From Leeuwenhoekiella sp. MAR_2009_132 (GTDB lineage: Bacteria > Bacteroidota > Bacteroidia > Flavobacteriales > Flavobacteriaceae): 64,000 nt of DNA. Every line of letters begins with the position of its first letter. The stretch's first letter is position 1. Under the pieces are notes generated by a model. It made no database searches. It saw nothing but the letters and a program-made list of their open reading frames with translations, and had not been told where the DNA came from. The translations under genes were made by a program, and so were the position numbers. The DNA lies in contig NZ_JHZY01000002.1 in the NCBI RefSeq assembly GCF_000687915.1, forward strand, positions 310,001 through 374,000, in the 5' to 3' direction. Positions 15,083 to 39,464 of the stretch are shown here, piece by piece.

Positions 15083-15475
15083 AAGAAATGGTTTGAATTA
15101 CGAAATCGATATAGTTAAAGGAACGTGCCTATATAAATAAATTAATGTATTTAATACATTTATAATAGACATTACAATATTCCTAAAACTGAAGCCAATA
15201 GTTAGGGGGTATAGTGGTAAAAATAGGGGTGTAAATCGTTCAGTTCGGGTTAAATGACTGAATATGAATAGTTGGCGGCTGTATTCTAGTTTAGTAGAAA
15301 TTGATTCAATTGAAGTATAACAGAACACCAGGCTTTGTAGTGAAAGAACTTTGTATAATCAACTTTTAGATCAAAGTCAGATTTTGCCATTTCGTTTTAG
15401 GAGCTGTATCACAAGAAACAGAAGTCAAAAGTAGAATTAATACCGTTAATGTTCTTTTTAGTTCTTAAATGTGAT
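15083..15475. other. Intergenic region upstream of the glycoside hydrolase
   Basis: About 390 bases without a credible gene. A 17-bp palindrome at 15144-15160, AATGTATT-T-AATACATT, sits 62 bases before the hydrolase start and is a candidate operator. Nothing else is recognisable before the first cassette-type site begins at 15476. Confidence 0.5.
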
Positions 15476-15610
15476 ATAACGTGTTTGGCTATGAGTAGTT
15501 GCGTGGGTTAGCCCTTAATTTAGCAAGTACACACCAAACTGAAAATCCGTGAGGATTTTGAGAAGTATGCCACGACAAGCAATTAGCTATATCCATAAAG
15601 GACGTGTCGT
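15476..15610 (-). repeat. attC-like cassette site 7 (array 1, distal end)
   Basis: An imperfect long palindrome. The left arm GGCTATGAGTAGTTGCGTGG pairs with a right arm whose complement reads GGATATAGCTAATTGC. A central hairpin AAAATCC-GTGA-GGATTTT lies at 15542-15559. It has the same architecture and length (about 130 bp) as the sites at 16444, 17219, 25966 and 26770. It lies just after the DUF1801 gene and closes the first array. The outer GTTGT/ACAAC core is degenerate here. Confidence 0.65.
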
Positions 15611-15614
15611 TTTT

Positions 15615-15986
15615 TTATTCAGTCAATAGTTTTTTTCTGTATTCTATCATTCGGATGATCAATTCAATCGGTAATGGTCTGTCTAATGGAAATTGAACCG
15701 AGCCTTTCCCGCGCTTGTATTCAGTTAATTCAGGTTCAAACTTTTCTATAGTTGTAGGGCTTGGATAAAGTCCAATGTGTTTTTTATATCCTGCAATCAT
15801 TATTTGTTGATCCCTTTTTCCGTTTTCGACTAAAGCATAAGCTGGTATGTTATAGTTCAGAAGTTCAGTTGCATTAGGCTCAACTTTCAAAATACATTCT
15901 CTAAGTTCCAAAAGTGCCTTTTTGGTTGGTTCGGGTTGAGCATTGATGTAGTGGGCTACAGAATTGTATTGGGTTGTCTCGCTCAT
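15615..15986 (-). CDS. DUF1801 / YdhG-like (frataxin-fold) protein
   Basis: A 123-residue cytoplasmic protein of the DUF1801/YdhG family, a fold related to bacterial iron chaperones such as Fra. Recognisable features are the N-terminal SVAHYINAQPEPTKKALLELRECI, the conserved ELLNYNIPAYAL and KHIGLYPSPTTIEKF blocks, and RGKGSVQFPLDRPLP near the C-terminus. It is 13 bases downstream of an AHSA1-like gene with no site between them, so both appear to belong to one cassette. The role is uncertain; family members have been linked to iron handling and stress. Confidence 0.85.
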   Translation of the reverse strand: MSETTQYNSVAHYINAQPEPTKKALLELRECILKVEPNATELLNYNIPAYALVENGKRDQQIMIAGYKKHIGLYPSPTTIEKFEPELTEYKRGKGSVQFPLDRPLPIELIIRMIEYRKKLLTE

Positions 15987-15999
15987 TTCTGATGTTTTA

Positions 16000-16407
16000 C
16001 TATGTTTCTACGTACTTCTTGAAATTCTCAAGAATCGCTTGCCAACCTGCACGTTGTTGTTCATCTGTATTTGTTCCCTCTGCATCAAAAGTTTCGCTCA
16101 CATTTACATGATCTCCATCTTGCGAAAATTCAATATCTACTTTCCGTCCGTCTGACATTTTATACGAAATTAATTCTTTGTCAATTATTGTGTCATAGGT
16201 GCCCGTAAAGTCAAATCCCATACTTCCGTCTTTTGCTTCCATTCGCCAGGAGAAATTTCCATTTGGTTTAAGGTCATTTTTAGCGTTTGGGCAGCACCAC
16301 TCGTCAGTCGCAAAATTCCAATTTGTGATATGTTCAGGTTTAACCCAATAGTCCCAAACTTTTTCAATGTTAGATTTGATTGAAGTTTGAACTGTTATTC
16401 TTTGCAT
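16000..16407 (-). CDS. SRPBCC/AHSA1-like START-domain protein
   Basis: A 135-residue single-domain protein of the AHSA1 (activator of Hsp90 ATPase C-terminal) branch of the START/SRPBCC superfamily, a ligand-binding helix-grip fold. The N-terminal TVQTSIKSNIEKVWDYWVKPEHITNWNFATDEWCCPNA and the C-terminal GWQAILENFKKYVE are the typical ends of this family. No ligand can be named. It is the first gene of a two-gene cassette and is preceded by a site at 16444-16571. Proteins of this class occur often in mobile cassettes. Confidence 0.85.
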   Translation of the reverse strand: MQRITVQTSIKSNIEKVWDYWVKPEHITNWNFATDEWCCPNAKNDLKPNGNFSWRMEAKDGSMGFDFTGTYDTIIDKELISYKMSDGRKVDIEFSQDGDHVNVSETFDAEGTNTDEQQRAGWQAILENFKKYVET

Positions 16408-16443
16408 TTCTATTAATTATTTTAAGTTCTACTTAAATAAACT

Positions 16444-16571
16444 CCAATGTTTATGTGTATGAGCTGTGGCGTGTCTCGGTACGAACCATTAAAAGTACAA
16501 AACTGCGCTGGAAAATCCGCAGGATTTTCCAAGTGATGACTGACCAAGCCATAGCTTTTATACTGTGTTGT
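16444..16571 (-). repeat. attC-like cassette site 6
   Basis: A 128-bp imperfect palindrome. The left arm GTGTATGAGCTGTGGCGTG and right arm (complement CAGTATAAAAGCTATGGC) pair, with a perfect central hairpin GGAAAATCC-GCA-GGATTTTCC at 16510-16530. The right end carries GTTGT at 16567-16571. It separates the cassette with the 209-residue lipoprotein from that with the AHSA1/DUF1801 pair. Confidence 0.75.
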
Positions 16572-16581
16572 AACACGTTTT

Positions 16582-17211
16582 TTATTTATTCATAAGTTGA
16601 GTGGCTTCCCAGACATATTCTTTTCCAAATTCGCCGAAATAACTAATGTAGTTTCCGTCTTTTGATATCACTACAAAACTGTCACAAGGATAATGATATT
16701 CAAAAAACAACCTTTCAACTGTTCCTTCTGGGTCTTTATGCCAAGTCAAAACTCCATCGTATTTTTCCAAACCATCATTATCTTTATAAATATAAATCGG
16801 TTTAGTTTGAGCAACTTGATTGATTCCGTCTTCTAATTGTCCGAACCAAATTTTGCTTGATTCTTTTGTAGCTGAACCACTTGAATTACAACCGTCTTTT
16901 CCTGGATAGTAAATTATAACTATTGGTTTAGTGGAATCTAATTCTTGATTTGTTTCTTTCTCAAGTAGTGATTCTAATAAAGCTCTGTTTGTTATTTTTC
17001 CACGTTTTTCTCTTAAAGTTAATTTTTTATGATTAGCGGAATCTCCGGGAATATCTAATAATTTATTTGTAGAACGAATTCGGTCGAACTTTGATTTACT
17101 TATTTCTACATTGTTCTCGTCGAAGTATTTAATTCTGTCATTTCCAACCTTCGAGGAAGAACAAGAATAAATTAAAATTCCAAAAGTTAATGTTAGCAGG
17201 ATTTTTCTCAT
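16582..17211 (-). CDS. Lipoprotein of unknown function (cassette gene)
   Basis: A 209-residue lipoprotein. The signal MRKILLTLTFGILIYSC ends in a lipobox (IYSC), with the lipidated cysteine at residue 17. The mature part includes KPIVIIYYPGKDGCNSSGS and a C-terminal beta-rich region (YFGEFGKEYVWEATQLM). The YYPGKDGCNSSG stretch recalls thioredoxin-like folds, but there is no CxxC, so no activity is claimed. It starts three bases inside the start-side end of its cassette, whose first 12 bases are nearly the reverse complement of its last ones. Confidence 0.7.
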   Translation of the reverse strand: MRKILLTLTFGILIYSCSSSKVGNDRIKYFDENNVEISKSKFDRIRSTNKLLDIPGDSANHKKLTLREKRGKITNRALLESLLEKETNQELDSTKPIVIIYYPGKDGCNSSGSATKESSKIWFGQLEDGINQVAQTKPIYIYKDNDGLEKYDGVLTWHKDPEGTVERLFFEYHYPCDSFVVISKDGNYISYFGEFGKEYVWEATQLMNK

Positions 17212-17218
17212 ATGTTTT

Positions 17219-17349
17219 ACAACGGTTTTGTGTATGGTTAGTTGCGTGTTTAAGCAACTAATTTAGTAAACAAAAACGAACGCGAGAAAATTCCGTAGGA
17301 ATTTTCCAAATAAGCAACGACCAAAGCAATTAATTATACACGTTGTTGG
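17219..17349 (-). repeat. attC-like cassette site 5
   Basis: About 131 bp. ACAACG at 17219 and GTTG at 17345 mark the ends. The left arm TGTATGGTTAGTTGCGTG pairs with the right arm (complement TGTATAATTAATTGC). A central hairpin GAAAATTCC-GTA-GGAATTTTC lies at 17286-17306. It separates the DUF4844-like cassette (upstream on the minus strand) from the 209-residue lipoprotein cassette. Confidence 0.8.
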
Positions 17350-17359
17350 CAACAGTTTT

Positions 17360-17806
17360 TTAATTCTTTTTATTCACAGTATTTGGGTCAAATCCATAAT
17401 AAAAGTCATTCAACTTTCCATTCGAACTTTGAAGTCCAACTATGTCCATTATTTCCTGAAAATAAAGTAAAATCCTTTCTCTATCTTCAGAATCATATCT
17501 TAATTCCATTTCCGGGAATTTTAAAAGTCCGATTCTAATTGCTTCTTGGTATTTCTCGTCAGTTGGTTTTTCAGATTCCGCAATTTGTTTAAAATCAGTT
17601 GCGACTTCGTTGATTTTTTCGGTCAATATTGGTCTCAATTTTTCATCCGATATATTTGGTGAATGATTTTCCGCATAGAATTTTTTCTTTGCAATAAATT
17701 CTACAAACTTTTCATTCGCATTTTCAGGTGTTTTCATTTCGGTTGCATTTTGTCCGCAAGCAGATAAAGTTAAAAACAGAACTAATATTTTGATGTATTT
17801 CGTCAT
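17360..17806 (-). CDS. DUF4844-like lipoprotein (first gene of array 1)
   Basis: A 148-residue lipoprotein with signal MTKYIKILVLFLTLSAC and a lipobox at LSAC. The C-terminal block RYDSEDRERILLYFQEIMDIVGLQSSNGKLNDFYYGFDP resembles the DUF4844 family; that assignment is from memory of the motif and should be checked. It directly follows the platform repeat at 17822-17998, so it is the first cassette of array 1, in the position where an integron-like array would be most strongly transcribed. Confidence 0.7.
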   Translation of the reverse strand: MTKYIKILVLFLTLSACGQNATEMKTPENANEKFVEFIAKKKFYAENHSPNISDEKLRPILTEKINEVATDFKQIAESEKPTDEKYQEAIRIGLLKFPEMELRYDSEDRERILLYFQEIMDIVGLQSSNGKLNDFYYGFDPNTVNKKN

Positions 17807-17821
17807 TTCTCAAATTGTTGC

Positions 17822-17998
17822 CAACTAGTTATATCAATCCTAAATATACTGTTATTACGCAATATTTCTTAAAATAATAGTATTTTAAACTGTGCGCAAA
17901 TTGCCGTTGCGATCTCAAATTATTTATAGAATTCTGTATTCAGCGAAAAATAAACACATATAAAAAGCGAACTTTTTTAGGTTCGCTTTCGTGTAATA
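17822..17998 (-). repeat. Array platform, copy 1 (attI-like plus terminator)
   Basis: About 170 bp shared with 27431-27600 at roughly 80-85% identity by eye. Read on the minus strand it contains a terminator hairpin (AAAGCGAAC/GTTCGCTTT, 17964-17989), a segment with the AGAATTCT palindrome, and TTATTTTAAGAAATATTGCG. TATATTTA at 17841-17848, one base off a -7 box, precedes the junction TAGTTGG, where the first cassette begins. It lies downstream of the exported-protein gene at 18075. Confidence 0.7.
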
Positions 17999-18074
17999 TT
18001 AGTTTTTAATCTCTTTTTCAAGGAAATAAATTAGTGTATTCGTATTAGTTTGTTCGCGTAAACCGAGGGTTTAT

Positions 18075-18476
18075 CTAGTCTAAAACTATCATGTCTGATT
18101 TAGTATCTCCCAGGTTAAAGGATATAGCTTTAACTTTTATTTTATTAGTGCCATTTAACGAATAATGTGCAGAAAATCTAAATGTTTGAGAGTAGTTATT
18201 TAATTCACCAAAATTTATTGCTGTTGTTAAATTACTAAATACCGCTATTCCATCATTATCAGATGCAGCTTGAAAATCGGCAAATTGAGGATCATCTCCA
18301 ATTACACTCCAGGTTGTTTCGTTATAAGCATAGATAACAATTCCTGAAACAGCTTCCCCATTAGAATCTGTTAAGGTTATTGCTGCAGTAGTGATTTTGT
18401 TCTCTGAAGCATTATCATCAGATGAACAGCTTGATAGTAAACTGATTGTGACTAATACAAGTAATAGTTTTTTCAT
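18075..18476 (-). CDS. Lipoprotein of unknown function
   Basis: A 133-residue lipoprotein with signal MKKLLLVLVTISLLSSC and lipobox LSSC, followed by an acidic SSDDNASENK linker. The rest looks like a small beta-sandwich: ITLTDSNGEAVSGIVIYAYNETTW resembles carboxypeptidase-regulatory or Ig-like repeats. It lies 11 bases downstream of a similar small lipoprotein and probably forms a two-gene unit with it, bracketed by platform copies 2 and 1. Confidence 0.7.
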   Translation of the reverse strand: MKKLLLVLVTISLLSSCSSDDNASENKITTAAITLTDSNGEAVSGIVIYAYNETTWSVIGDDPQFADFQAASDNDGIAVFSNLTTAINFGELNNYSQTFRFSAHYSLNGTNKIKVKAISFNLGDTKSDMIVLD

Positions 18477-18487
18477 TTTTACACTAT

Positions 18488-18904
18488 TTACTTTACAATT
18501 ATTGAAGTAGTACGACTTTGTCCAGACTTAACCAAGAAGGTGGGATGCGTTATGCTTTCTAAACTAAAGCCATTAGAGGTTTTTAGAAATGCCTCAAAAA
18601 AATAGGGGCCATTACCATTTTTTGCAATATAATCTTCTAAATCAAAACTTACATTACCCTCAGAATTGCTTGTTTTTTGAAATAGAATTTCCGGTAATGG
18701 TTGGTTTTCTTTTACTTCCCGATTAAACATCATAACGATATATCCACTTTGTGAAGCACTCGAGCTGTTAATTACATTGAGATTTACGGTGGCTGTTGTG
18801 CTACCAGAGGTAGATTCGTTAGTTGTAATTTCTGTTTCAGAGTCTTCTGTAGTACATGAGATTAATGTTCCTGTGAATAGGAAAAGCATAAGCATTTTTT
18901 TCAT
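18488..18904 (-). CDS. Lipoprotein of unknown function, paired with the preceding type
   Basis: A 138-residue lipoprotein with signal MKKMLMLFLFTGTLISC and a Ser/Thr-rich linker (TTEDSETEITTNESTSGSTT). The body, VNLNVINSSSASQSGYIVMMFNREVKENQPLPEILF through GNVSFDLEDYI, suggests an Ig-like beta-sandwich similar in plan to its downstream neighbour. The two could be distant paralogues. No family name is offered. Confidence 0.7.
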   Translation of the reverse strand: MKKMLMLFLFTGTLISCTTEDSETEITTNESTSGSTTATVNLNVINSSSASQSGYIVMMFNREVKENQPLPEILFQKTSNSEGNVSFDLEDYIAKNGNGPYFFEAFLKTSNGFSLESITHPTFLVKSGQSRTTSIIVK

Positions 18905-18954
18905 TGTCTAAATTTTAGCTTCAGTTTATAGTTACGGATTTTTCAAAAATTTTT

Positions 18955-19060
18955 AATCCGTGCGCAAAATACCGTTACGATCTCACACTATTTTACAGAA
19001 TTCTGTATTCGGCGAAAAATAAACACAAAAAAAAAGCGACCCTTTTTTAAAGATCGCTTT
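18955..19060 (-). repeat. Array platform, partial copy 2
   Basis: About 105 bp matching the terminator-proximal part of the platforms at 17822 and 27431: GTGCGCAAAATACCGTTACG, a segment with ACAGAATTCTGT, AAAAATAAACACA and a terminator hairpin (AAAGCGA/TCGCTTT, 19034-19060). The cassette-proximal segment is missing. It lies 80 bases downstream of map and acts as its terminator. Confidence 0.75.
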
Positions 19061-19140
19061 TGGCGTGAAATTAATTTTATGTCTTGTGCCGGGCTTTATA
19101 GCTTATTGATTGATAGTAATACGTTTTTTAAGCCAATAAC

Positions 19141-19905
19141 TTAATTCCAGATTTCATTAGATTCGGTTAAAATTATAGGCAGATTATCTGTAACAAGAAT
19201 GGTATGCTCGTGTTGCGTTACATAGCCACCTTTATTTCCTACAAGAGTCCAACCGTCATTTAGCTCGACAGCAACAGTAGATTTTGTCGAAATAAACGTT
19301 TCTATGGCTACTGTGGTATTTTTTTTAAAGCGCTCACGGTTACTTTTAACCCTGTAATTTAAAATGTTCTCAGGGGCTTCGTGTAAACTTCTACCCACAC
19401 CGTGACCGGCGAGATTTTTAATTACTTTAAATCCAGATTTCTTGGCTTCTGTTTCTATTAAATAACCAATTTCCGAAATTTTAACTCCGCCTTTAATGCT
19501 GCTTATTGCTTTACTTAAAATAGTTTTAGAAGCATCTACAAGCGGTTGGTGCTTATGAATGTCTTTTCCGAGTATAAATGAACCTCCATTGTCAGACCAG
19601 AAGCCATCAAGTTCTGCAGAGACATCAATATTAATTAAATCTCCTTCTTTCAGTATTTTTTTCTCAGATGGGATTCCGTGTGCTGCTTCTTTATTTACGC
19701 TAATACAGGTATAACCCGGAAATCCATAGGTTTCAAAGGGTGCAGATTTTGCACCATAACTTTGTAAAATACCACCTCCGTAGTCATCTAATTCTTTTGT
19801 AGACATACCTACTTTAGCGTATGCTCTCATTAGTTTTAGTGTAGAACCCACAACTTCACTAATTTTTTGCATTCCCCGTAATTCTGATTCTGTTGTTATT
19901 GACAT
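19141..19905 (-). CDS. map: Type I methionine aminopeptidase
   Basis: Removes the initiator methionine from nascent proteins in the cytoplasm. The metal ligands are visible: AAHGIPSE (conserved His), INIDVSAELDGFWSDNGGSF (two Asp), GHGVGRSLHE (His), AIETF (Glu) and QHEHTILV (Glu). At 254 residues it is the usual bacterial length without an N-terminal zinc domain. Many flavobacteria carry a second map in the ribosomal operon, so this could be an accessory copy; it sits between two cassette-type regions and beside platform copy 2. A GG insertion in DDYGGGILQSYGAKSAPF is normal for the fold. Confidence 0.92.
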   Translation of the reverse strand: MSITTESELRGMQKISEVVGSTLKLMRAYAKVGMSTKELDDYGGGILQSYGAKSAPFETYGFPGYTCISVNKEAAHGIPSEKKILKEGDLINIDVSAELDGFWSDNGGSFILGKDIHKHQPLVDASKTILSKAISSIKGGVKISEIGYLIETEAKKSGFKVIKNLAGHGVGRSLHEAPENILNYRVKSNRERFKKNTTVAIETFISTKSTVAVELNDGWTLVGNKGGYVTQHEHTILVTDNLPIILTESNEIWN

Positions 19906-20043
19906 AGGGTTTGTTTATTTAGGATCAATACTAGCGCTAATAAATGAAATATTTTAATTTTTTAGGAAGCTGTTGCGAATTATTTGAGTTTTAAGTAAAG
20001 TAAAACTTGAAAAGTGAGGATTGTAAAATATTGAGAATGAGCG

Positions 20044-20955
20044 TTAATTAAACGAATTACGGTATTCTAAAGGCGATAAATCTGTTTTATTTTTGAAAAG
20101 TCTATTAAACGATTGTGAGTGTTCAAAACCAAGCTGAAAAGCAATTTCGCTAATAGATTTAGATGTGGTCGCCAACTCTTCTTTTGCAGTTGAGATTAAT
20201 TTAGAGTGAATATGCTGTTGTGTATTCTGTCCGGTGATGGTTCTCAACATATCACTCAAATAATTTGAAGAAACGTTTAACTCAAGTGCGATACTTTTAA
20301 CTGTAGGTAGTTTTCTTTGTGTTTTCGTATCAAAATAGCTAGCTAGTTTAGTTTCAAAATTGGCAAGCAAATCATTACTCGCCATTTTTCGAGTTATAAA
20401 CTGTCTACTGTAAAAACGATTGCAGTAATTAAGTAGTAGCTCAATATTTGAAATTATAACATCCTGACTATACAAATCAATTGTGGAGCTATACTCATCT
20501 CTAATATTCTGTACTAAATTTTCAATTATGCCTTCTTCTTTTTCAGATAGGTGTAAAGCCTCATTAACACTGTAAGAAAAGAAGCCATAACTTTTAATAG
20601 ACTTTGATAAAGACGTGTTTGCTAATAAATCTGGATGAAACAGTAAAGACCAGCCGTTAGTATTTTGATCGCCTTTTTCATCAATTGTTAATACCTGGTT
20701 AGGCGCAAGAAATGATAGTGTTCCCTCATCAAAATCATAGTTACTTTTACCATATTTTAGTTGCCCTTGAAAACTTCGTTTAATCGTAATATTGTAGAAG
20801 TTCAATACCATTTTCTGGTTATCTACATCGTTTTGTTCTCGTTCTTGAGAATGATCAATTAGTGTAATTAAGGTATTGGTGGGTTTAGGTAGACCTAAAA
20901 CCCGATGCAGTTCGGTAATTGAATTTATGGTTTTAGGACTATTCTTTTGTTCCAT
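20044..20955 (-). CDS. AraC-family transcriptional regulator
   Basis: A 303-residue regulator. The C-terminal 100 residues carry the double HTH: TVKSIALELNVSSNYLSDMLRTITGQNTQQHI, then KSISEIAFQLGFEHSQSFNRLFKNKTDLSPLEYR. The N-terminal part (YNITIKRSFQGQLKYGKSNYDFDEGTLSFLAPNQ) is cupin-like and probably senses a ligand. The frame extends nine codons upstream, but the ATG at 20953-20955 is preferred. It starts 10 bases after an aldo/keto reductase and is co-transcribed with it, so it probably controls its own operon. Confidence 0.88.
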   Translation of the reverse strand: MEQKNSPKTINSITELHRVLGLPKPTNTLITLIDHSQEREQNDVDNQKMVLNFYNITIKRSFQGQLKYGKSNYDFDEGTLSFLAPNQVLTIDEKGDQNTNGWSLLFHPDLLANTSLSKSIKSYGFFSYSVNEALHLSEKEEGIIENLVQNIRDEYSSTIDLYSQDVIISNIELLLNYCNRFYSRQFITRKMASNDLLANFETKLASYFDTKTQRKLPTVKSIALELNVSSNYLSDMLRTITGQNTQQHIHSKLISTAKEELATTSKSISEIAFQLGFEHSQSFNRLFKNKTDLSPLEYRNSFN

Positions 20956-20965
20956 AGCTATTAAA

Positions 20966-22000
20966 TTACGACAAAAAATCACGACCGTTACTTCTGTCTG
21001 CGGTCATCACTTCAACCACATTTTTAGGATATTCAATGGGTAACGCACTTACTTCATCTAACATATTTAATTCATCTGTAGTAAATTCTACGGTTATCGC
21101 TTTTAGATTGTCTTGAAGTTGTGACATTTTTGTCGCACCTATAATACTACTTGTAACTACCGGTTGCTGTAGTAACCAGCCTAAAGCTAATTGAGCAACT
21201 GTAAAACCTTTTTGTTTTGCCATAGGAATAAGTACATCTATAACGTCAAATGCTCTTTCTTTATGAAAAGGTTCAAATGGGAAGTCGTTTAATCTACCTT
21301 TTTCATTGATGCCATCTCTCTTGTATTTTCCTGTGAGAAGGCCGCCACTCAAAGGACTCCACACTAACAATCCAACTTTTTGATCCTGCAATAAAGGTAT
21401 CATTTCGCGTTCTAAATCTCTGTTATCTAGCGAATAATTGGCTTGTAAAGAAGCAAATTTCTCTAAATTATTATGAGTAGAATGCCCTAAGGCTTTCATT
21501 AAATGCCAGGCCATAAAATTACTAGCACCTATATAACGCACCTTACCGCTACGTACTAAATCATCTAAGGCTCTTAAGGTTTCTTCAATGGGCGTTAATG
21601 GGTCTGATGTATGCAACTGATATAAATCTATATAATCTGTATTTAGTCTTTTGAGACTTTCATCTACCTGCTGAATAATATGTTTTCTAGATAAGCCTCT
21701 GTCGTTTTCTCCTATTCCCATACTACCTCTAACTTTGGTTGCAATAACAAAATCGTCCCGTTTGATAGAAAGATTTTTTATTGCTTTTCCAATCATTAGT
21801 TCTGAAAGTCCTTCAGAATAAATATTAGCAGTATCTATAAAATTTACTCCCGCATTAATTACAGTTTTTATCTGCTCATCTACTTCTTGCTGTCCTAAAT
21901 CTCCCATATAGTTAAAAAAACCCTTTCCGCCATAATTCATTGTTCCTAGACAAAGCGTTGAGACTTTTAATCCTGTATTTCCTAAAATTTTGTAATTCAT
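20966..22000 (-). CDS. Aldo/keto reductase
   Basis: A 344-residue NADPH-dependent aldo/keto reductase (TIM barrel, YajO/potassium-channel-beta-like branch). Key residues: FIDTANIYSEGLSE with the catalytic Asp and Tyr, VIATKVRG with the Lys, and LYQLHTSDP with the His. The GASNF block and the NADP-binding IIGATKMSQLQDN block follow. The frame runs upstream to 22042, but the ATG at 21998-22000 begins at MNYKILGNTGLKVSTLCLGTMNYGG, the family N-terminus. It is first gene of a two-gene operon with AraC. The substrate is unknown. Confidence 0.92.
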   Translation of the reverse strand: MNYKILGNTGLKVSTLCLGTMNYGGKGFFNYMGDLGQQEVDEQIKTVINAGVNFIDTANIYSEGLSELMIGKAIKNLSIKRDDFVIATKVRGSMGIGENDRGLSRKHIIQQVDESLKRLNTDYIDLYQLHTSDPLTPIEETLRALDDLVRSGKVRYIGASNFMAWHLMKALGHSTHNNLEKFASLQANYSLDNRDLEREMIPLLQDQKVGLLVWSPLSGGLLTGKYKRDGINEKGRLNDFPFEPFHKERAFDVIDVLIPMAKQKGFTVAQLALGWLLQQPVVTSSIIGATKMSQLQDNLKAITVEFTTDELNMLDEVSALPIEYPKNVVEVMTADRSNGRDFLS

Positions 22001-22125
22001 TAGTTCTAATTTTTGTTCTAGGCAAAGTTGACTAACGATCACAATTCTAATGTAACCAGATTGGGGTTTGTTGTAACCAAAATGAAGAGTAGCGTTTAAG
22101 CTTTATGATGCGGAGGTGAGTTACT

Positions 22126-22161
22126 CACATTCCTGTTAAAATATCTTATAGTAGGAATGTG
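22126..22161. repeat. Inverted repeat, possible weak terminator
   Basis: CACATTCCT (22126-22134) and AGGAATGTG (22153-22161) form a perfect 9-bp stem with an 18-base loop. It lies between the small membrane protein gene and the reductase gene, both on the minus strand. There is no clean T-run. Confidence 0.4.
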
Positions 22162-22210
22162 ATTTCTATACAATACAGGTAATGTTTTAATAACCGTGCT
22201 TTGAGTAGCA

Positions 22211-22396
22211 TTATCTATTTTCTTTTTTCTTTAGATCTCGCATCGTAACTAACATAGCCATAATTAAGAAGAAATTTGAAAGTATACCGGCAAAAGATCT
22301 AAAATCACTATTTTCAAAATCAAGCTCATAAATATTGTAGATTATAAAAATGATATTTACTGCGATTATTAGGTATATAAAATAAAGTTTTTTCAT
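22211..22396 (-). CDS. Small two-helix membrane protein
   Basis: 61 residues with two hydrophobic helices (LYFIYLIIAVNIIFIIYNIY and FAGILSNFFLIMAMLVTM) and a basic tail RDLKKKENR. A plausible inner-membrane miniprotein on the same strand as, and 77 bases behind, the epoxide hydrolase. Its coding status rests on composition and a well-placed ATG. Confidence 0.5.
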   Translation of the reverse strand: MKKLYFIYLIIAVNIIFIIYNIYELDFENSDFRSFAGILSNFFLIMAMLVTMRDLKKKENR

Positions 22397-22473
22397 TTTT
22401 AGTTTTGAATTTGGGATGTTTTTTACCTCATTTTCTAGTTAACAACCTATTTCTCTTATTTCAATATTTTTTT

Positions 22474-23604
22474 CTAGATAGCTAGTTCTTGAAAAAAATC
22501 CTTTATGTCTTTTGCCAACAAGTTTGGCTGTTCCATTCCAGCAAAATGGCCACCAACCGGCATTTCGGTCCAATGCGTGATATTGAAACCTTTTTCGATA
22601 TAGGAGCGTGGTGGTGTAGGCAATTCTTTGGGGAATTTTGCGAATCCAACAGGAACATTTATAAAATCGTTTTCGCCAAATTTTAAGGGATGCTTACTGT
22701 TTTCATTATACATTCTAATTGATGAATGAATAGTTTGAGTAATCCAATATAGGGTTACGTTTGCGAGTAATTCATCTTTCGTAAACACAGAATAGATTTC
22801 TCCATTATTATCGCTCCACGAATTAAATTTTTCAATAATCCAGGCGCATAAACCTATGGGAGAATCATTTAATGCAAAAGCTAATGTTATAGGTTTTGTA
22901 CTTTGTATGTAAGAATATGCAGCTTCTTTAGAAGCCCAATCTGATGCGTATTTTTGGAAGGCTACCACTTCATCTGTCAATTGCTCACCGTCTTTTAAAA
23001 ATGGCGTATAAGAGCCAGAAATGTAATTCAGGTGCAAACCAATTAGGTTTAGAGGATATTTTAAAGCGAGCCAGGAGCTAACTCCAGAACCAATATCTCC
23101 ACCTTGTGCCCCATAGCGGTCATATCCTAATTCTAGCATTAACTTGTGCCATAAATGAGCAACGAATTCTGAATTACAACCTTCAACCTGACTTTTCCCG
23201 GAATATCCAAATCCAATAATGGAAGGAATCACTAAATCAAAAGAAATTTCAGCATCATTTGTCAGCAAAGGTATAAGCTTAAGCATTTCGATAAAGGAAC
23301 CGGGCCAACCGTGAGTTATGATTAAGGGTATGTTTTTTTTTCCTTTTCCTTTAACGTGTATAAAGTGGATATCATAACCATCTATGGTTGCAATTAAATT
23401 TGTGAAAGAATTTATTTCAGCCTCTACTTTTCTCCAGTCGAATTTGTACAACCAATAATTGGATAATTCTTTCATAAAAGAAAGGTTAGTTCCGTACATC
23501 CAGTTTGAGTCAGATATTTCGTCTGGCCAACGTGTATTCTTAATTCTATTCTTTAAATCGTCAAGAATTTCTTCGGAAATATTTGCTGAAAATGGTTTTA
23601 TCAT
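22474..23604 (-). CDS. Epoxide hydrolase, EHN-type alpha/beta hydrolase
   Basis: A 376-residue soluble epoxide hydrolase. The N-terminal EHN domain (PFSANISEEILDDLKNRIKNTRWPDE) is followed by the alpha/beta-hydrolase core. It contains HGWPGSFIEM (oxyanion HGWP), GAQGGDIGSGVSSWLALKYP (nucleophile Asp in GGDIG), and a C-terminal GGHFAGMEQP with the catalytic His. These mark it as a hydrolase converting epoxides to diols. The frame opens with TTG at 23622, inside the adjacent cassette site; the ATG at 23604 matches the family start and is chosen. It may be the last cassette of array 2, although no site was found on its 3' side. Confidence 0.88.
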   Translation of the reverse strand: MIKPFSANISEEILDDLKNRIKNTRWPDEISDSNWMYGTNLSFMKELSNYWLYKFDWRKVEAEINSFTNLIATIDGYDIHFIHVKGKGKKNIPLIITHGWPGSFIEMLKLIPLLTNDAEISFDLVIPSIIGFGYSGKSQVEGCNSEFVAHLWHKLMLELGYDRYGAQGGDIGSGVSSWLALKYPLNLIGLHLNYISGSYTPFLKDGEQLTDEVVAFQKYASDWASKEAAYSYIQSTKPITLAFALNDSPIGLCAWIIEKFNSWSDNNGEIYSVFTKDELLANVTLYWITQTIHSSIRMYNENSKHPLKFGENDFINVPVGFAKFPKELPTPPRSYIEKGFNITHWTEMPVGGHFAGMEQPNLLAKDIKDFFQELAI

Positions 23605-23618
23605 TATAATTTTTTTGG

Positions 23619-23767
23619 CCAATTGAAATGAAAGTTAGCTGCGGTGTCGGCTACGCGTATTGGCGTGATTTAATAACCTAAATTAGCAAATAAATCATAG
23701 ATAAAAAGTCCACAAGGACTTTCGTAAATTGGCGAAACCCGCAATTAATTTAAAACGGTTTTTACAA
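23619..23767 (-). repeat. attC-like cassette site 4
   Basis: Arms GAAAGTTAGCTGCGG (near 23629-23643) and, by complement, TTTTAAATTAATTGCGG (near 23739-23755) pair. A central hairpin AAAGTCC-ACAA-GGACTTT lies at 23705-23722. The outer core is degenerate. It separates the 168-residue exported protein from the epoxide hydrolase. Confidence 0.65.
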
Positions 23768-23774
23768 AACCTTA

Positions 23775-24281
23775 TTAATTTAGGTTCTGTCTTTGACAAC
23801 CAGTACTCCTTTGTTCTTGAGTTAGCGTCCAAACATTTATTGCTTTTCTATCAAGTTTGTTCTCAGAATCAGGTTCTACTAATTCAATTTCAATAATACT
23901 TTCAGAGGCAATTTTGTAATCAGAATGTTCTATTAAATAACCATTTACAAAAATTCCATTATTTTTTTCAATTCCGAAAAATTTGTTCAATTCAGATTGT
24001 GTTTTAAAAGCAGTTTTTTTCTTTAAGCTCACAAAATAAATCCCATTTGCAGTCAGGTTGAAAAACTTATGCTCTTTCCGATTTGGTTTGTCTTTCAAAA
24101 AGCTTATTTCTGCAATCAATTCTTTTGCTAGTTCTATAACACGTTCGTTCGCAATAATGTCTTTTTCAATAATTACTGTAGGACAATTTCTTCCACTCAC
24201 TGGTAATTTTACATAGCTATCTTGAGCATAGCTATTCGATAAAAAGAAACTGAAAATTATAGTTGTAATTATTCTTTTCAT
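23775..24281 (-). CDS. Exported protein of unknown function (cassette gene)
   Basis: 168 residues with signal peptide MKRIITTIIFSFFLSNSYAQ, cleaved near residue 20. The mature part has two cysteines (RNCPTVI and TGCQRQ), which could form a disulfide. KNNGIFVNGYLIEHSDYKIASESIIEIELV resembles the carboxy-terminal fold of plug-type or secretin-type small domains, but this is only a shape impression. It is flanked by cassette sites on both sides. Confidence 0.65.
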   Translation of the reverse strand: MKRIITTIIFSFFLSNSYAQDSYVKLPVSGRNCPTVIIEKDIIANERVIELAKELIAEISFLKDKPNRKEHKFFNLTANGIYFVSLKKKTAFKTQSELNKFFGIEKNNGIFVNGYLIEHSDYKIASESIIEIELVEPDSENKLDRKAINVWTLTQEQRSTGCQRQNLN

Positions 24282-24301
24282 ATGTGTCTTGTTAATGTTT
24301 A

Positions 24302-24560
24302 CTAACGGTTCTGTATAAAAAAAAAGTAGGCGTGCGAAGCAAGAAACTTACAGTTAAGTATGAAGTTTAAAACAAGCATTTGCCATTGATAAATGTGGTT
24401 TGCCCTATGATGAAAACTACGTCTCTCTTCTTACTAAAGCCTAGGTCAAAAAAACAATAAATTAAACAGCTAGAATCTGTAGCTACAGATTTTAGCAAAG
24501 TATATGAAGGTTTACAATTTATTGCAACAAGGAGTTGTTTTCACCTTAGTACTTTATTGT
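24302..24560 (-). repeat. attC-like cassette site 3, enlarged
   Basis: Ends resemble the other sites: CTAACGGTTCTGTATAA at 24302-24318 and, at the right, ATTGT at 24556-24560. The interior is about 130 bp longer. It holds an 18-bp perfect palindrome AATCTGTAGCTACAGATT (24474-24491) and unrelated filler, including a short stop-bounded reading (AIDKCGLPYDENYVSLLTKA) that looks like a protein C-terminus. Confidence 0.5.
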
Positions 24561-24566
24561 GCGTAG

Positions 24567-25946
24567 TTATTTTTTCAATTCTATATTTTTCTTTTTAGTG
24601 GGATTTTTTTTAATAGGAACTTTTTTAGAAGGTGTTTTTTTTGCTGGAACTTTCTTTTTCGTTATTATTTTTTCTTTTTTTTCTTCTATTATTTTAGGGT
24701 TCTTTTCAAACAGTTCTTCAATTAACTCTTGAATCGGTTTTTTAGGAATTTCTAGAACTTTATAATCTTCCTCAAAAATTTCTTTAAACAAGTCTATGAA
24801 TTCTTTTTCTCTTCTTAATTTATAAAATAATGGCCAAGTTTTATAACTTTCTTTATCTATATCTCCGTCTTTTCCTATTTTTTTCATTAAAACGTATACA
24901 TCCTCAACTTTTTCAGATAGTATTAAATGAGCCATTTTAAAATCATCACTACTAGCACTCCAATCTTTACTATTAATTATTTCTAAAGCGTTTTCATTAT
25001 TATTTTGTAAAAATTGAGAGAGAGACTTATTTACGATATATAAATTTTTTGTTGCATCGTTGAAGTGTTTTGTTTGTTTACAGGCAAAATCTAAAAGAAT
25101 ATCTGCTAACTTATATTGACCATCAGTTAATAATTGATAACAGATTTCATTCAGTTCCTCATCTGCTAATTTAATATCTTCATTAATTAATTTTCTCCAA
25201 ATTGTGTGAGTTAATTTTGTTGTAATTTCATAAAGGCACTCATAAGCTAATTGGAAATAATCTAACTTAACCGTTAGACGTTCATTTAGTTCTATATCTT
25301 TTTGGAAACATTTATTTTCCTTACAAACTTTTATATATTGACTTGAAACAATTCCATCACAGTGTACAAATAAATTTCGCCTTTCAGTTATTTCTATGAA
25401 TGTTTTCCATATCGGCAAATCCTTTTTTAAAGGCATTCCTATTTTGTTTTCTAAATATGTGAAATGTTCACTGTGACTTTTTCGTAATACACTTTCAACC
25501 TCTTTCTCAATGATAAATTCTCTAGCTTCTTCTATAGATTTAAAACTGTTTAAATCAGCAAAAGTCAATTCTCTTTCCGACTTGTTGATGTATTCTGGTC
25601 TTATATTGAATAAAATTTTCAATAATTGATTTAAATAAGAGTCGTATTGAGAAATTAGAGAAACAAATAGACTTTCAGGTATTATTTTTGAGCCTAGAGA
25701 AGATGTTTGAGCATTTTTAGATAACTGTTCAAAAGTTCTCGATTGCTCATATGGTACTGAAACAGATTTTCTTCCATCTTCATCCTCTATTTCTTCAAGA
25801 TTTTCCTTTATAAAATTTTCAAATTTAAGATTAGCCTTCTTTTGATATGGACGCAATAACAATAATGTCATTGGTAAAGTATCTTTAATTGAATCTAAAT
25901 GTTGTAAAAAATTATGTAAATTATTATTTAATTCTTTTCCGTTCAT
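24567..25946 (-). CDS. HEPN-like protein with lysine-rich tail (cassette gene)
   Basis: A 459-residue, mostly helical, cytoplasmic protein. In the first half, FVSLISQYDSYLNQLLKILF and WKTFIEITERRNLFVHCDG (near residues 195-215) resemble HEPN-type helical bundles. The RRNLFVH segment fits the R-x4-6-H RNase motif seen in RiboL-PSP/HEPN proteins. The middle is helical and repeat-like (TPR-like at about 270-340). The last 40 residues are an almost pure Lys/Pro/Thr tail (TKKKVPAKKTPSKKVPIKK), which could bind nucleic acid. The gene is noticeably AT-rich. HEPN RNases are common in toxin and anti-phage systems; the motif is seen, the role is inferred. Confidence 0.6.
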   Translation of the reverse strand: MNGKELNNNLHNFLQHLDSIKDTLPMTLLLLRPYQKKANLKFENFIKENLEEIEDEDGRKSVSVPYEQSRTFEQLSKNAQTSSLGSKIIPESLFVSLISQYDSYLNQLLKILFNIRPEYINKSERELTFADLNSFKSIEEAREFIIEKEVESVLRKSHSEHFTYLENKIGMPLKKDLPIWKTFIEITERRNLFVHCDGIVSSQYIKVCKENKCFQKDIELNERLTVKLDYFQLAYECLYEITTKLTHTIWRKLINEDIKLADEELNEICYQLLTDGQYKLADILLDFACKQTKHFNDATKNLYIVNKSLSQFLQNNNENALEIINSKDWSASSDDFKMAHLILSEKVEDVYVLMKKIGKDGDIDKESYKTWPLFYKLRREKEFIDLFKEIFEEDYKVLEIPKKPIQELIEELFEKNPKIIEEKKEKIITKKKVPAKKTPSKKVPIKKNPTKKKNIELKK

Positions 25947-25965
25947 AGTTTGGGTTTAATTACGC

Positions 25966-26094
25966 ACAACGGTCTCGTATAACCGTCAGTTACGGGTTAA
26001 TATGCGTCAATATTCGGTTTGGCACAAACGTTAGCAATTCCGAGTGGATTCGGACGCAGTCGAATGCGCCTTAATTGCGGTTATGCATTGTTGT
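25966..26094 (-). repeat. attC-like cassette site 2
   Basis: Exactly 129 bp from ACAAC (25966-25970) to GTTGT (26090-26094). The left arm ACAACGGTCTCGTATAACCG and the complement of the right arm ACAACAATGCATAACCGC pair. Internal stems include ATTCCGAGTGGATTCGGA. Very similar to site 1. The left end (GTTGTAAACAG on the complementary reading) falls inside the last codons of the 160-residue gene. Confidence 0.85.
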
Positions 26095-26563
26095 AAACAG
26101 TTATTTTTTTAGCGATGTATTTTTCAATCAGTTCTTTGTCCGTTTTATTTTTTAAAATCAATAATTCATTGTTTTTATGAGTCCGATAATTCATAAAGAA
26201 TTTCGTTTTTCCACTCCGATTTAATTCCGAATATTCAAACCGGTTTGGGTCAAATTTATTAGTAATTAATTCCGTTTTTTGAGTTCGGTCAAGTATTTTT
26301 TTGAGTCGAGTTATTTTCCCAGTTTGTTCATCAATTTTTAATTCCGTGTAGTAAATCCACGAAGCAAATCGGTAAAATGTATATCCGATTAAAGTTAGAA
26401 TTGCGACAAAAAATCCGACTCCAATTCCGAGAAACCAAATCAGGAAAATGAATGAAGTAGAAGTCCAAATCATCAGTTCTTTCCAGTTAAATGGAATTCT
26501 GTCACTCAACGTATGAATATTTCCATTTTTAGATATCCTAAAATAATCTTCGTTTTCGTTCAT
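26081..26563 (-). CDS. Two-helix membrane protein, PH-like (cassette gene)
   Basis: 160 residues. Two adjacent hydrophobic helices (about 30-70, ELMIWTSTSFIFLIWFLGIGVGFFVAILTLIGYTFYRF) are followed by a beta-rich soluble domain (YYTELKIDEQTGKITRLKKIL). This layout is common in small PH-domain-like membrane proteins. Its ATG directly abuts the stop of the 65-residue gene (TAAATG), so the two are translationally coupled in one cassette. Its final residues TVYNNA and stop codon are encoded inside the attC-like site. Confidence 0.7.
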   Translation of the reverse strand: MNENEDYFRISKNGNIHTLSDRIPFNWKELMIWTSTSFIFLIWFLGIGVGFFVAILTLIGYTFYRFASWIYYTELKIDEQTGKITRLKKILDRTQKTELITNKFDPNRFEYSELNRSGKTKFFMNYRTHKNNELLILKNKTDKELIEKYIAKKITVYNNA

Positions 26564-26761
26564 TTAAAATGAGTCGTAAATTAGTCTTATACCAATTGCT
26601 AAAAGGATAAATGCACCTAAAATGAATTCAATCGTAAACGACATTCGCATATAATCTTCATTTTTTCTTTGAGCAACGAATTTCTTTCTTTCGTAATTGT
26701 ACCATATAATTCCAAGTGCTATTAACAAAGCTCCAAGTAAAAATGTTAGTACGTTTTCCAT
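26564..26761 (-). CDS. Small two-helix membrane protein (cassette gene)
   Basis: 65 residues: helix MENVLTFLLGALLIALGIIWYNY, a basic loop ERKKFVAQRKNEDYMRM, then a second helix FTIEFILGAFILLAIGIRLIY. It is the first gene of a two-gene cassette that begins with GTTGTAAACAATT. It overlaps nothing and is followed without a gap by the PH-like gene. A role with its partner in the membrane is plausible. Confidence 0.65.
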   Translation of the reverse strand: MENVLTFLLGALLIALGIIWYNYERKKFVAQRKNEDYMRMSFTIEFILGAFILLAIGIRLIYDSF

Positions 26762-26769
26762 AATTGTTT

Positions 26770-26898
26770 ACAACGGTCTCGTATAAATTTCAGTTACGGT
26801 TTATTATGCGTTAATTTTCGTTTTAGCACTGACCTTAGCAATTCCGAGTGGATTCGGATGTAGTCGAATCCGCCGTAATTGCGGTTATACATTGTTGT
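26770..26898 (-). repeat. attC-like cassette site 1
   Basis: 129 bp from ACAAC (26770-26774) to GTTGT (26894-26898). The left arm ACAACGGTCTCGTATAA pairs with a right arm whose complement is ACAACAATGTATAACCGC. The CAATTACGG/CAGTTACGG pair extends the stem, and an internal stem GGATTCG/CGAATCC lies at 26850-26871. It follows the DUF4279 gene, the first cassette of array 2. Confidence 0.85.
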
Positions 26899-26908
26899 GG
26901 GTAGTAGT

Positions 26909-27406
26909 TTATTCATCGTGATAAATATCGAATACTATTTCCAGATTTCTTTCCGCAATTAACTTCATAGTTTCAGGTTTTAGAGTAAATCCTCTATTCC
27001 AATTATCCATATATCCAGCAACATCAATCCAGCTTTCATATTTGTTAGTCAAAATTTTCCATTTGTTCAAATCATTGGTGAAATTGCTCAATAATTCTTC
27101 CAGTTTGATGTTCAAATCAGTTTTATCTCGTTTAGATGTAAAATACCATTTTCCCCAATCTGTTATTCTGGATTTTTTGGCATTTCCGATTGGATGTTTT
27201 TCATAAGCATTCCACGCTTTGGTTGGTTCCGCTCCTAAAAGTTTTGTAATTTCTTTTCTGTCAAGAGATTTAGAATAGAAATTTAGTCCGACGCTAAATT
27301 CCTCAAAACCACCACCAATTTCCGCAATATGTTCCATTTCATCAGAGCTAGTATTTTCTCTAATAATTTCATTGTCGTTTTCATCAAACCACCTTGTTGA
27401 ATTCAT
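26909..27406 (-). CDS. DUF4279 protein (first gene of array 2)
   Basis: A 165-residue soluble protein of the DUF4279 family. Recognisable parts: FSVGLNFYSKSLDRKEITKLLGAEPTKAWNAYEKHP, then SRITDWGKWYFTSKRDKTDLNIKLEELLSNF and DVAGYMDNWNRGFTLKPETMKLIAERNLEIVFDIY. The family is common in scattered accessory loci and has been noted as a possible immunity or SUKH-like partner, but no function is established here. It follows platform copy 3 by 25 bases, in the first cassette position. Confidence 0.8.
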   Translation of the reverse strand: MNSTRWFDENDNEIIRENTSSDEMEHIAEIGGGFEEFSVGLNFYSKSLDRKEITKLLGAEPTKAWNAYEKHPIGNAKKSRITDWGKWYFTSKRDKTDLNIKLEELLSNFTNDLNKWKILTNKYESWIDVAGYMDNWNRGFTLKPETMKLIAERNLEIVFDIYHDE

Positions 27407-27430
27407 TTGCGATGTTTTTTTCTATTACCC

Positions 27431-27600
27431 ACAACTACTTATATCAATCCTAAATATACTGTTATTACACAATATTTCTTAAAATAATATTTTTATTCCG
27501 TGTTCAAGATACCGTTACGATCTTAGAATGTTTTACAGAATTCTGTATTCGGGGAAAAATAAACACATAAAAAAAGCGACCCTTTTTAAGGATCGCTTTT
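27431..27600 (-). repeat. Array platform, copy 3 (downstream of clpB)
   Basis: Aligns with copy 1 (17822-17998). Read on the minus strand: a terminator (AAAGCGATCC/GGGTCGCTTT, 27571-27600) closing clpB, a segment with ACAGAATTCTGT, AACGGTATC, TTATTTTAAGAAATATTGTG, TATATTTA (27451-27458) resembling a -7 box, and the cassette junction AGTTGTGGG. This is the likely entry site of array 2. Confidence 0.75.
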
Positions 27601-39073: not shown

Positions 39074-39221
39074 AATACTAGATATACTAATTAATAAAAG
39101 GTTACTTTTTTAGTAAATCGTACAACGGGAAATAGATATAGATAGAAGAAGCACACCTTAAAATTTAGACGCACAGAACAATCTACCCAAAGCAATAACT
39201 CCCGAAAGCTTTGATTTATAA

Positions 39222-39392
39222 TAGATTGTGGCAGGTCTTCTGACTCATCCCTCGTTTTAACCCTTCCCATCATTGCGACAGTGGTTTTGTTAAACGATTA
39301 TCCTGTAATACAGAATAGGATTTACAGCAGCGGGAACTGTTCAGGATTTACACCTGATTCCCTTTTAATACAGCATAAGAATGCTATAACCA
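39222..39392 (-). promoter_or_regulatory. Cobalamin riboswitch
   Basis: On the minus strand it shows all landmarks of the adenosylcobalamin aptamer in order: GGGAATCAGGTGTAAATCC, then GAACAGTTCCCGCTGCTG, CCACTG, TGGGAAGG, and GAGTCAGAAGACCTGCC at the 3' end (39230-39246). It controls the lipoprotein starting at 39073, about 150 bases downstream. The outer boundaries are estimated. Confidence 0.93.
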
Positions 39393-39464
39393 AAAATCTG
39401 TACAACGTTAGTATATTTTAATAAGCTAACTCAATGTTTCTAGAATAAAAACGAATTATTTTAT

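Follow-up and report, generated by a model that had tools for sequence, protein, structure and literature searches.

Which genetic system built the two runs of small minus-strand genes, separated by long hairpin-forming sites, in a 64,000-nucleotide stretch of Leeuwenhoekiella sp. MAR_2009_132 (contig NZ_JHZY01000002.1; G000:C2:310001-374000 in our numbering, where G000 is the source genome of 4.28 Mb in 5 contigs)? An initial annotation of this stretch, hereafter the window, had described integron-like gene cassettes with a non-canonical recombination core and no integrase in view. Our analysis leads to a related answer that we hold with considerable confidence: the window tracts are very probably integrase-less arrays of an integron-like, folded-site cassette system of Bacteroidota that is run by a Xer-type recombinase. 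The integron-like character is borne out by the co-oriented small genes between structured sites, by cassette-specific inverted repeats resembling R'/R'', by a whole cassette shared with exact ends, and by a recombinase directly upstream of many arrays.

Cassette ends and the two window arrays

Intact cassettes follow a simple rule. They start with GTT-N7 and end in N7'-AAC plus a hairpin of ~123 nt, N7' being the reverse complement of the cassette's own N7. Among adjacent site pairs in the fetched arrays, 81 of 116 matched at 6-7 of 7 positions, compared to 31 of 1009 for other pairs and 10 of 154 for comparisons between the ends of the same site. Candidate positions were picked identically in all three sets, and at least one cassette entered the count twice, since loci L050 and L083 overlap. 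Similarity between genomes ends at AAC and GTT. Because the R' and R'' ends of canonical attC sites are likewise complementary, over 9-11 bases according to an excerpt of PMC2727003, we regard the end complementarity as integron-like behaviour. The ACAAC/GTTGT boundary proposed at the outset exists and reads more exactly N7'-AAC ... GTT-N7, with an N7 that differs by cassette. The claim of a non-canonical core held: of 84 sites, 4 agree with GTTRRRY and 5 with RYYYAAC, GTT and AAC themselves being kept in sites that were selected for having them.

Some cassettes are also shared as whole units. An 803-bp cassette, 99.9% identical, is present in two arrays of the source genome ~180 kb apart, its ends lying 1-2 nt from junctions, and a 585-bp cassette occurs twice in locus L067 with all four ends at junctions. 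Twelve genomes of the genus were compared downstream of clpB, and 5 have a recognisable junction there, identified through the leader in two cases and by eye in three. These five junctions are followed by five different first N7; the matching end was exact in three and 6/7 in one (L123). At one conserved junction, related species thus carry different first cassettes. At clpB, the first cassette of another genome of the genus (G010) shares 80.7% identity across 945 nt with the cassette that comes first after the recombinase in G026, a genome from another genus. The initial reading was to be given up if sites had no link to gene boundaries or if cassette content did not vary; in our comparisons, made between species rather than strains, the link and the variation were both found.

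In the window, both arrays lie on the minus strand, with small genes and hairpin sites behind each leader. The following features were recognised:

27433-27600, minus: leader 1 with attI-like junction, array A; terminator hairpin, TATATTTAG, GATATAAGTA, then GTT; directly downstream of clpB (27625-30228)
26897-27435, minus: cassette A1; gene 26909-27406, DUF4279; N7 GTGGGTA, N7' TACCCAC, 7/7
26772-26896, minus: site S7, class A; site-profile match
26093-26774, minus: cassette A2; genes 26564-26761 and 26081-26563, the second reaching into the site edge; N7 GTAAACA, N7' TGTTTAC, 7/7
25968-26092, minus: site S6, class A; site-profile match
24559-25970, minus: cassette A3; gene 24567-25946, 459 aa, no family over cut-off; N7 GTGCGTA, N7' TACGCAC, 7/7
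24305-24558, minus: site S5, degenerate or of another class; 254 nt, starts AAT instead of AAC
23775-24281, minus: gene of cassette A4; no Pfam match
23639-23762, minus: site S4, decayed; GTT end lost
22474-23622, minus: epoxide hydrolase gene; no closing site recognised, may not be a cassette
18946-19061, minus: partial third leader copy, junction absent; precedes two small genes (18488-18904, 18075-18476)
17823-17989, minus: leader 2 with attI-like junction, array B; 28 of 37 nt identical to the L083 junction
17348-17825, minus: cassette B1; gene 17360-17806, DUF4844; N7 GGCAACA, N7' TGTTGCC, 7/7
17221-17347, minus: site S3, class B; site-profile and covariance-model match
16570-17223, minus: cassette B2; gene 16582-17211; N7 GTAAAAC, N7' GTGTTAC, 6/7
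16446-16569, minus: site S2, class B; ATT replaces GTT at its end
15615-16407, minus: genes of cassette B3; AHSA1 (16000-16407) and DUF1801 (15615-15986)
15475-15599, minus: site S1, class C; R'' end decayed

Cassettes A1, A2, A3 and B1 obey the pairing rule at all seven bases and B2 at six, whereas for A4 and B3 no end pairing was seen by eye; the ends of S1 and S2 are decayed at cassettes that lack visible pairing. All seven site positions named initially exist, and five of them (S1, S2, S3, S6 and S7) match well, with profile scores of 74-136 bits. S4 is decayed (71 bits), and S5, which matched neither the site profiles nor the covariance model, has support only from its ends, the preceding cassette beginning with GTTGTGCGTA and S5 with TACGCACAAT. 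The covariance model, built from class B/C sites, gave S1 85, S2 73, S3 115 and S4 48 bits. As to gene contents, DUF4279, DUF1801, AHSA1 and the epoxide hydrolase were confirmed, together with a DUF4844 gene. The HEPN-like assignment was not confirmed, the gene at 24567-25946 having no Pfam hit over cut-off, and the epoxide hydrolase gene is closed by no recognisable site.

The initial annotation had missed the conserved leader of ~165 bp that opens both arrays. It ends in GATATAANNAGTT, which occurs twice in the window vs 0.13 expected. When the leader was searched by BLAST in its own genome, only the three window copies were found, and TATATTTAG is present only in the window leaders and some junctions. 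The leader may carry the array promoter. Elsewhere in the window, a cobalamin riboswitch, the only Rfam match, lies at 39213-39409 on the minus strand (RF00174, 101 bits).

Beyond the window, inter-site segments (n = 85) have a median length of 769 bp; 77 contain an open reading frame, the longest of which lies on the site's strand in 72 of the 77. A scan of 76 cassette proteins, 8 from the window plus 68 of 71 others, hit 60 Pfam families (E 1e-5), and among the 25 families shown, TPR families aside, only DUF6090 had more than one member. Among the 76 proteins there is one match to PtuA models (E 2.6e-122), as well as one to an Imm33-like domain (E 8.1e-40). The gene between two sites at L102:5493-6773 encodes a diverged tyrosine recombinase with a different C-terminal part. 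In L056, L057 and L058, GTCAGACTGTCT-like sequence replaces GTT after several sites, possibly marking an array end or the end of an insertion sequence.

Site structure and strand asymmetry

The stems of the sites covary, and an asymmetry between the strands is conserved. From 182 profile sites, those with less than 60 bits or without AACA/GTT near their ends were dropped, leaving 90, of which 88 were distinct; 84 sites of 110-140 nt, a set that S1 and S4 fall outside, served for the stability and core-motif counts. The structural alignments comprised 53 of 61 class B/C and 21 of 23 class A sites, after removal by hand of one repeat copy common to two arrays and of odd-length rows, including window S2. 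In the class B/C alignment, 95.6% of cells in the named 25-pair structure are standard and both sides have changed in 13 of the 25 pairs. The stem covariation score was 0.203, compared to 0.067 for shuffled and at most 0.041 for slid structures, shuffle counts that are not probabilities because the structure was read from these same, related sequences.

An A.C mismatch is kept in all 53 class B/C sites and in all but one of the 21 class A sites, a second A.C in 52 of 53 class B/C sites, and an A bulge in all 21 class A sites. On the bottom strand, each top-strand A.C becomes T.G. The bottom strand is predicted to be the more stable one in 83 of 84 sites in the circular form and in 81 of 84 as bare core, a bias absent from coding control stretches (29 of 81). 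Strandedness may be marked by T.G/A.C positions instead of the canonical extrahelical base. The sites were unmatched in Rfam at gathering scores, and a phage search with one class C site found none. Compared to 28-bp dif-like sites, for which no search was made, the aligned sites are hairpins of ~120-130 nt.

Recombinase, junction and distribution

In many genomes, a tyrosine recombinase of ~380-400 aa is encoded directly upstream of arrays. These array recombinases are closest by sequence to XerC/XerA-like proteins and lack the insert of IntI: the inter-motif distance is 58-59 residues in 21 of 21 array-labelled rows vs 100 in IntI1, and the alignment to 2a3v breaks at the position of the IntI insert. 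All 10 tested proteins scored below the 265-bit cut-off of TIGR02249, and none of 60 relatives has a match over it. In a fold model of a group-i recombinase (11-row alignment; mean predicted local distance difference test score, pLDDT, 82; predicted template modelling score, pTM, 0.52), residues 285-300 at the IntI insert position are predicted without a helix, and the fold comparison was headed by XerA, with VIA-align 2 covering residues ~100-372 only. In our tree, 19 of the 21 array-labelled rows belong to group i (12 rows) or group ii (7 rows), clades at 100/100 each, while L181 and L187 fell on a third branch beside the array-less L094 and L185. The array label denotes for L090 and L098 a junction without repeat in a short flank, and for L181 one repeat alone. 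Two IntI rows form their own branch (L244, annotated IntI1, and L243, labelled by its 100-residue motif distance), and the ~300-aa recombinases L004 and L006 of the source genome, which we take to be XerD and XerC, lie on a separate branch. Branches between the clades are weak and fit one origin or several.

The junction after the recombinase stop codon is GATATAACNAGTT-like in group ii, often preceded by TATATTTAG, and often a palindrome plus GTT in group i. Several group-i palindromes among the L128-L157 junctions vary in letters between species yet stay palindromic, as if co-varying with the recombinase. The first GTT-N7 pairs exactly with a downstream N7'-AAC in 11 of 20 recombinase loci. 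The same exact inverted repeat between junction and first cassette was found in 17 of 30 family loci (flanks up to ~1.5 kb; 8 of the 30 also belong to the set of 20) and in none of 600 control windows. For named loci the count was 16 of 45, vs 44 of 900 windows. For the latter test, 50 of 80 named loci were entered and 5 with less than 400 nt downstream were left uncounted. Among the 12 named loci outside Bacteroidota there was one match, in a Spirochaetota metagenome-assembled genome, which chance could produce. Behind the L063, L094 and L096 recombinases, no junction-cassette repeat was found. Two-cassette chains could be followed in 5 of the 17 loci tried, which were selected mostly for having a hit; Winogradskyella ursingii and Seonamhaeicola aphaedonensis are among the 5. 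No cassette chain followed the plasmid recombinase of Persicobacter sp. JZB09 (L245).

As first described, no integrase lies inside the window, but the same genome has three recombinase-profile matches at E<=1e-70, two of which we examined. The recombinase at C2:831.6-832.8 kb (L083:13613-14800) heads a run of ~20 sites, and its group-ii junction resembles the window leaders, with 26 identities in the last 37 nt of leader 1 and the 28 listed for leader 2. The group-i recombinase at C2:1176.4-1177.5 kb has an open frame, and behind it lie a junction, a cassette and sites of its own. G010 encodes a recombinase that, across 390 aa, is the same as one assigned to Leeuwenhoekiella palythoae.

At E<=0.01, the site model matches the source genome 53 times; most of these matches lie in co-oriented arrays, and a few single copies stand outside arrays. 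Run on 249 genomes of the family, the covariance model matched 217; its E-values are rough owing to short calibration, and at most 14 sites were scored per genome. The recombinase profile matched 172 of the same 249 genomes (E<=1e-70) and co-occurred with the sites: 162 genomes have both, 55 the site only, 10 the recombinase only and 22 neither (Fisher p 2.5e-6, uncorrected for relatedness). In a sample of the phylum, 41 of 296 genomes matched the site model, 25 of them outside the family, and among the 26 genomes behind named loci it matched 9 of the 13 from Bacteroidota and none of the 13 from elsewhere.

Sites were also found on plasmids of Persicobacter psychrovividus and Flagellimonas marinaquae. 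On pPP2 of P. psychrovividus (L246:2831-28889), ~25 co-oriented hypothetical genes are flanked by transposases, and 16 places match the flavobacterial site, the best being 95% identical; an array in a different bacterial order is thus carried on a plasmid. Of the neighbour pairs on the P. psychrovividus plasmid, five could be measured and one matches at 7/7; sites of other classes may be missed there because the gaps between detected sites are long. On a mobilizable F. marinaquae plasmid (L247:4190-6123), a site lies behind a dihydrofolate-reductase-family gene that is cassette-bounded (6/7 end bases, by eye), and this cassette adjoins annotated erm(F), a Tn3-family transposase and a XerA-type recombinase.

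Mechanism, rival explanations and known systems

Under the explanation that we favour, the system would be driven by a Xer/XerA-type tyrosine recombinase of ~380-400 aa, which would act on the window arrays in trans from a gene at another place in the genome or in relatives. Circular cassettes would be inserted at the attI-like junctions in the leaders and excised again at the ~123-nt sites. The recombining substrate would be the hairpin of the folded bottom strand, with exchange probably at G|TT of the R'-like end, and replication would presumably resolve the junction. Several observations weigh against this picture. All evidence for cassette recombination comes from sequence, and 35 of 116 adjacent site pairs do not pair, some of which may be explained by undetected intervening sites. 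Fetched loci have 144 segments in common; all four ends fall within 13 nt of a listed junction in only 2 of these, the list comprising sites of at least 25 bits, and three such ends are seen in 3 more. At clpB, no matching end was found for the L121 junction, and L123 reaches only 6/7. The flank inverted repeat is absent in 13 of 30 recombinase loci, and 55 of 249 genomes have sites while their recombinase stays below threshold. The leader likeness of 26-28 in 37 nt is too small for a whole-leader BLAST to find, and the recombinase at C2:831.6-832.8 kb, whose frame meets a stop a few codons past the ATG, may no longer be active.

The most serious rival, which we nevertheless consider improbable, is double-stranded recombination of the pdif kind, in which a Xer-type enzyme moves gene modules and the hairpin is a large binding region with no single-stranded step. 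The sequence affinity to XerC/XerA-like proteins and the XerA hit heading the fold comparison speak for it, as do palindromes resembling a double-stranded binding site in several group-i junctions and the missing insert, which is said to let IntI process folded sites (PMC7790495). Stem covariation, however, is hard to explain in this way, the strand asymmetry is fixed in nearly all aligned sites, and the N7 pairing forms only in the folded circle. Slightly less probable still is a canonical integron whose integrase and attC have drifted past the standard models, given the uniform TIGR02249 scores under cut-off, the absence of the insert from every array-labelled row, the separate branch of the IntI rows and the few sites that fit GTTRRRY or RYYYAAC. 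That the sites are dispersed repetitive extragenic palindromic (REP)-like repeats or terminators merely lying between genes we consider hardly credible: they are indeed hairpins downstream of genes, a few of them solitary, but cassette-specific end pairing, exact cassette sharing and the linkage to recombinases do not fit. Terminators or REP-like repeats and a canonical integron missed by thresholds were both set aside.

Having returned to a folded-site cassette system with a Xer-type recombinase, we lean toward a broader proposal, though with clearly less assurance. Bacteroidota would run at least one separate integron lineage, in which Xer-type recombinases without I2 process folded single-stranded sites and strand choice depends on conserved A.C/T.G positions, not on an extrahelical base docked by I2. 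If this is true, the integron way of life would have arisen repeatedly, or at a time when IntI had yet to gain I2; the I2 helix is described as the step from double- to single-strand recombination (PMC7790495). With insert-less recombinases adjoining folded-site cassette arrays, and sites in the great majority of sampled family genomes, the system would add a large Bacteroidota pool of gene shuffling that escapes the TIGR02249 cut-off, and how integron recombination arose becomes directly testable. Titles and abstract starts in the open-access literature gave no description of the system; preprints and most subscription journals lay outside this scope, and we make no claim to priority.

Integrons are defined by IntI. 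The system described here shares with them a recombinase, a junction, co-oriented cassettes, folded sites, R'/R'' complementarity within the cassette, a bottom strand predicted to be the more stable and integrase-less arrays resembling clusters of attC sites lacking integrases (CALIN). It differs in that the recombinase lacks the IntI insert (I2 region) and reads in the same direction as the cassettes where the junction follows its stop, in a core of GTT-N7 rather than GTTRRRY, in a strand asymmetry that resides in conserved A.C mismatches (bottom T.G) and the class A bulge, and in sites that are long and alike across genera. A complete integron has been reported in Bacteroidetes, in Salinibacter ruber, where, according to an extract of PMC9024848, it was found by integron-integrase and attC models; the recombinases here, in contrast, lie under the TIGR02249 cut-off. 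Compared to the simple tyrosine recombinases XerC, XerD and XerA, they carry an extra N-terminal part of ~95 residues and are linked to cassette arrays. In the pdif modules of Acinetobacter plasmids, genes are bounded by ~28-bp double-stranded dif-like sites and moved by Xer-type recombinases. Site-bounded genes and Xer-type recombinases are common to both systems, whereas the sites described here are ~123-nt hairpins with cassette-specific ends.

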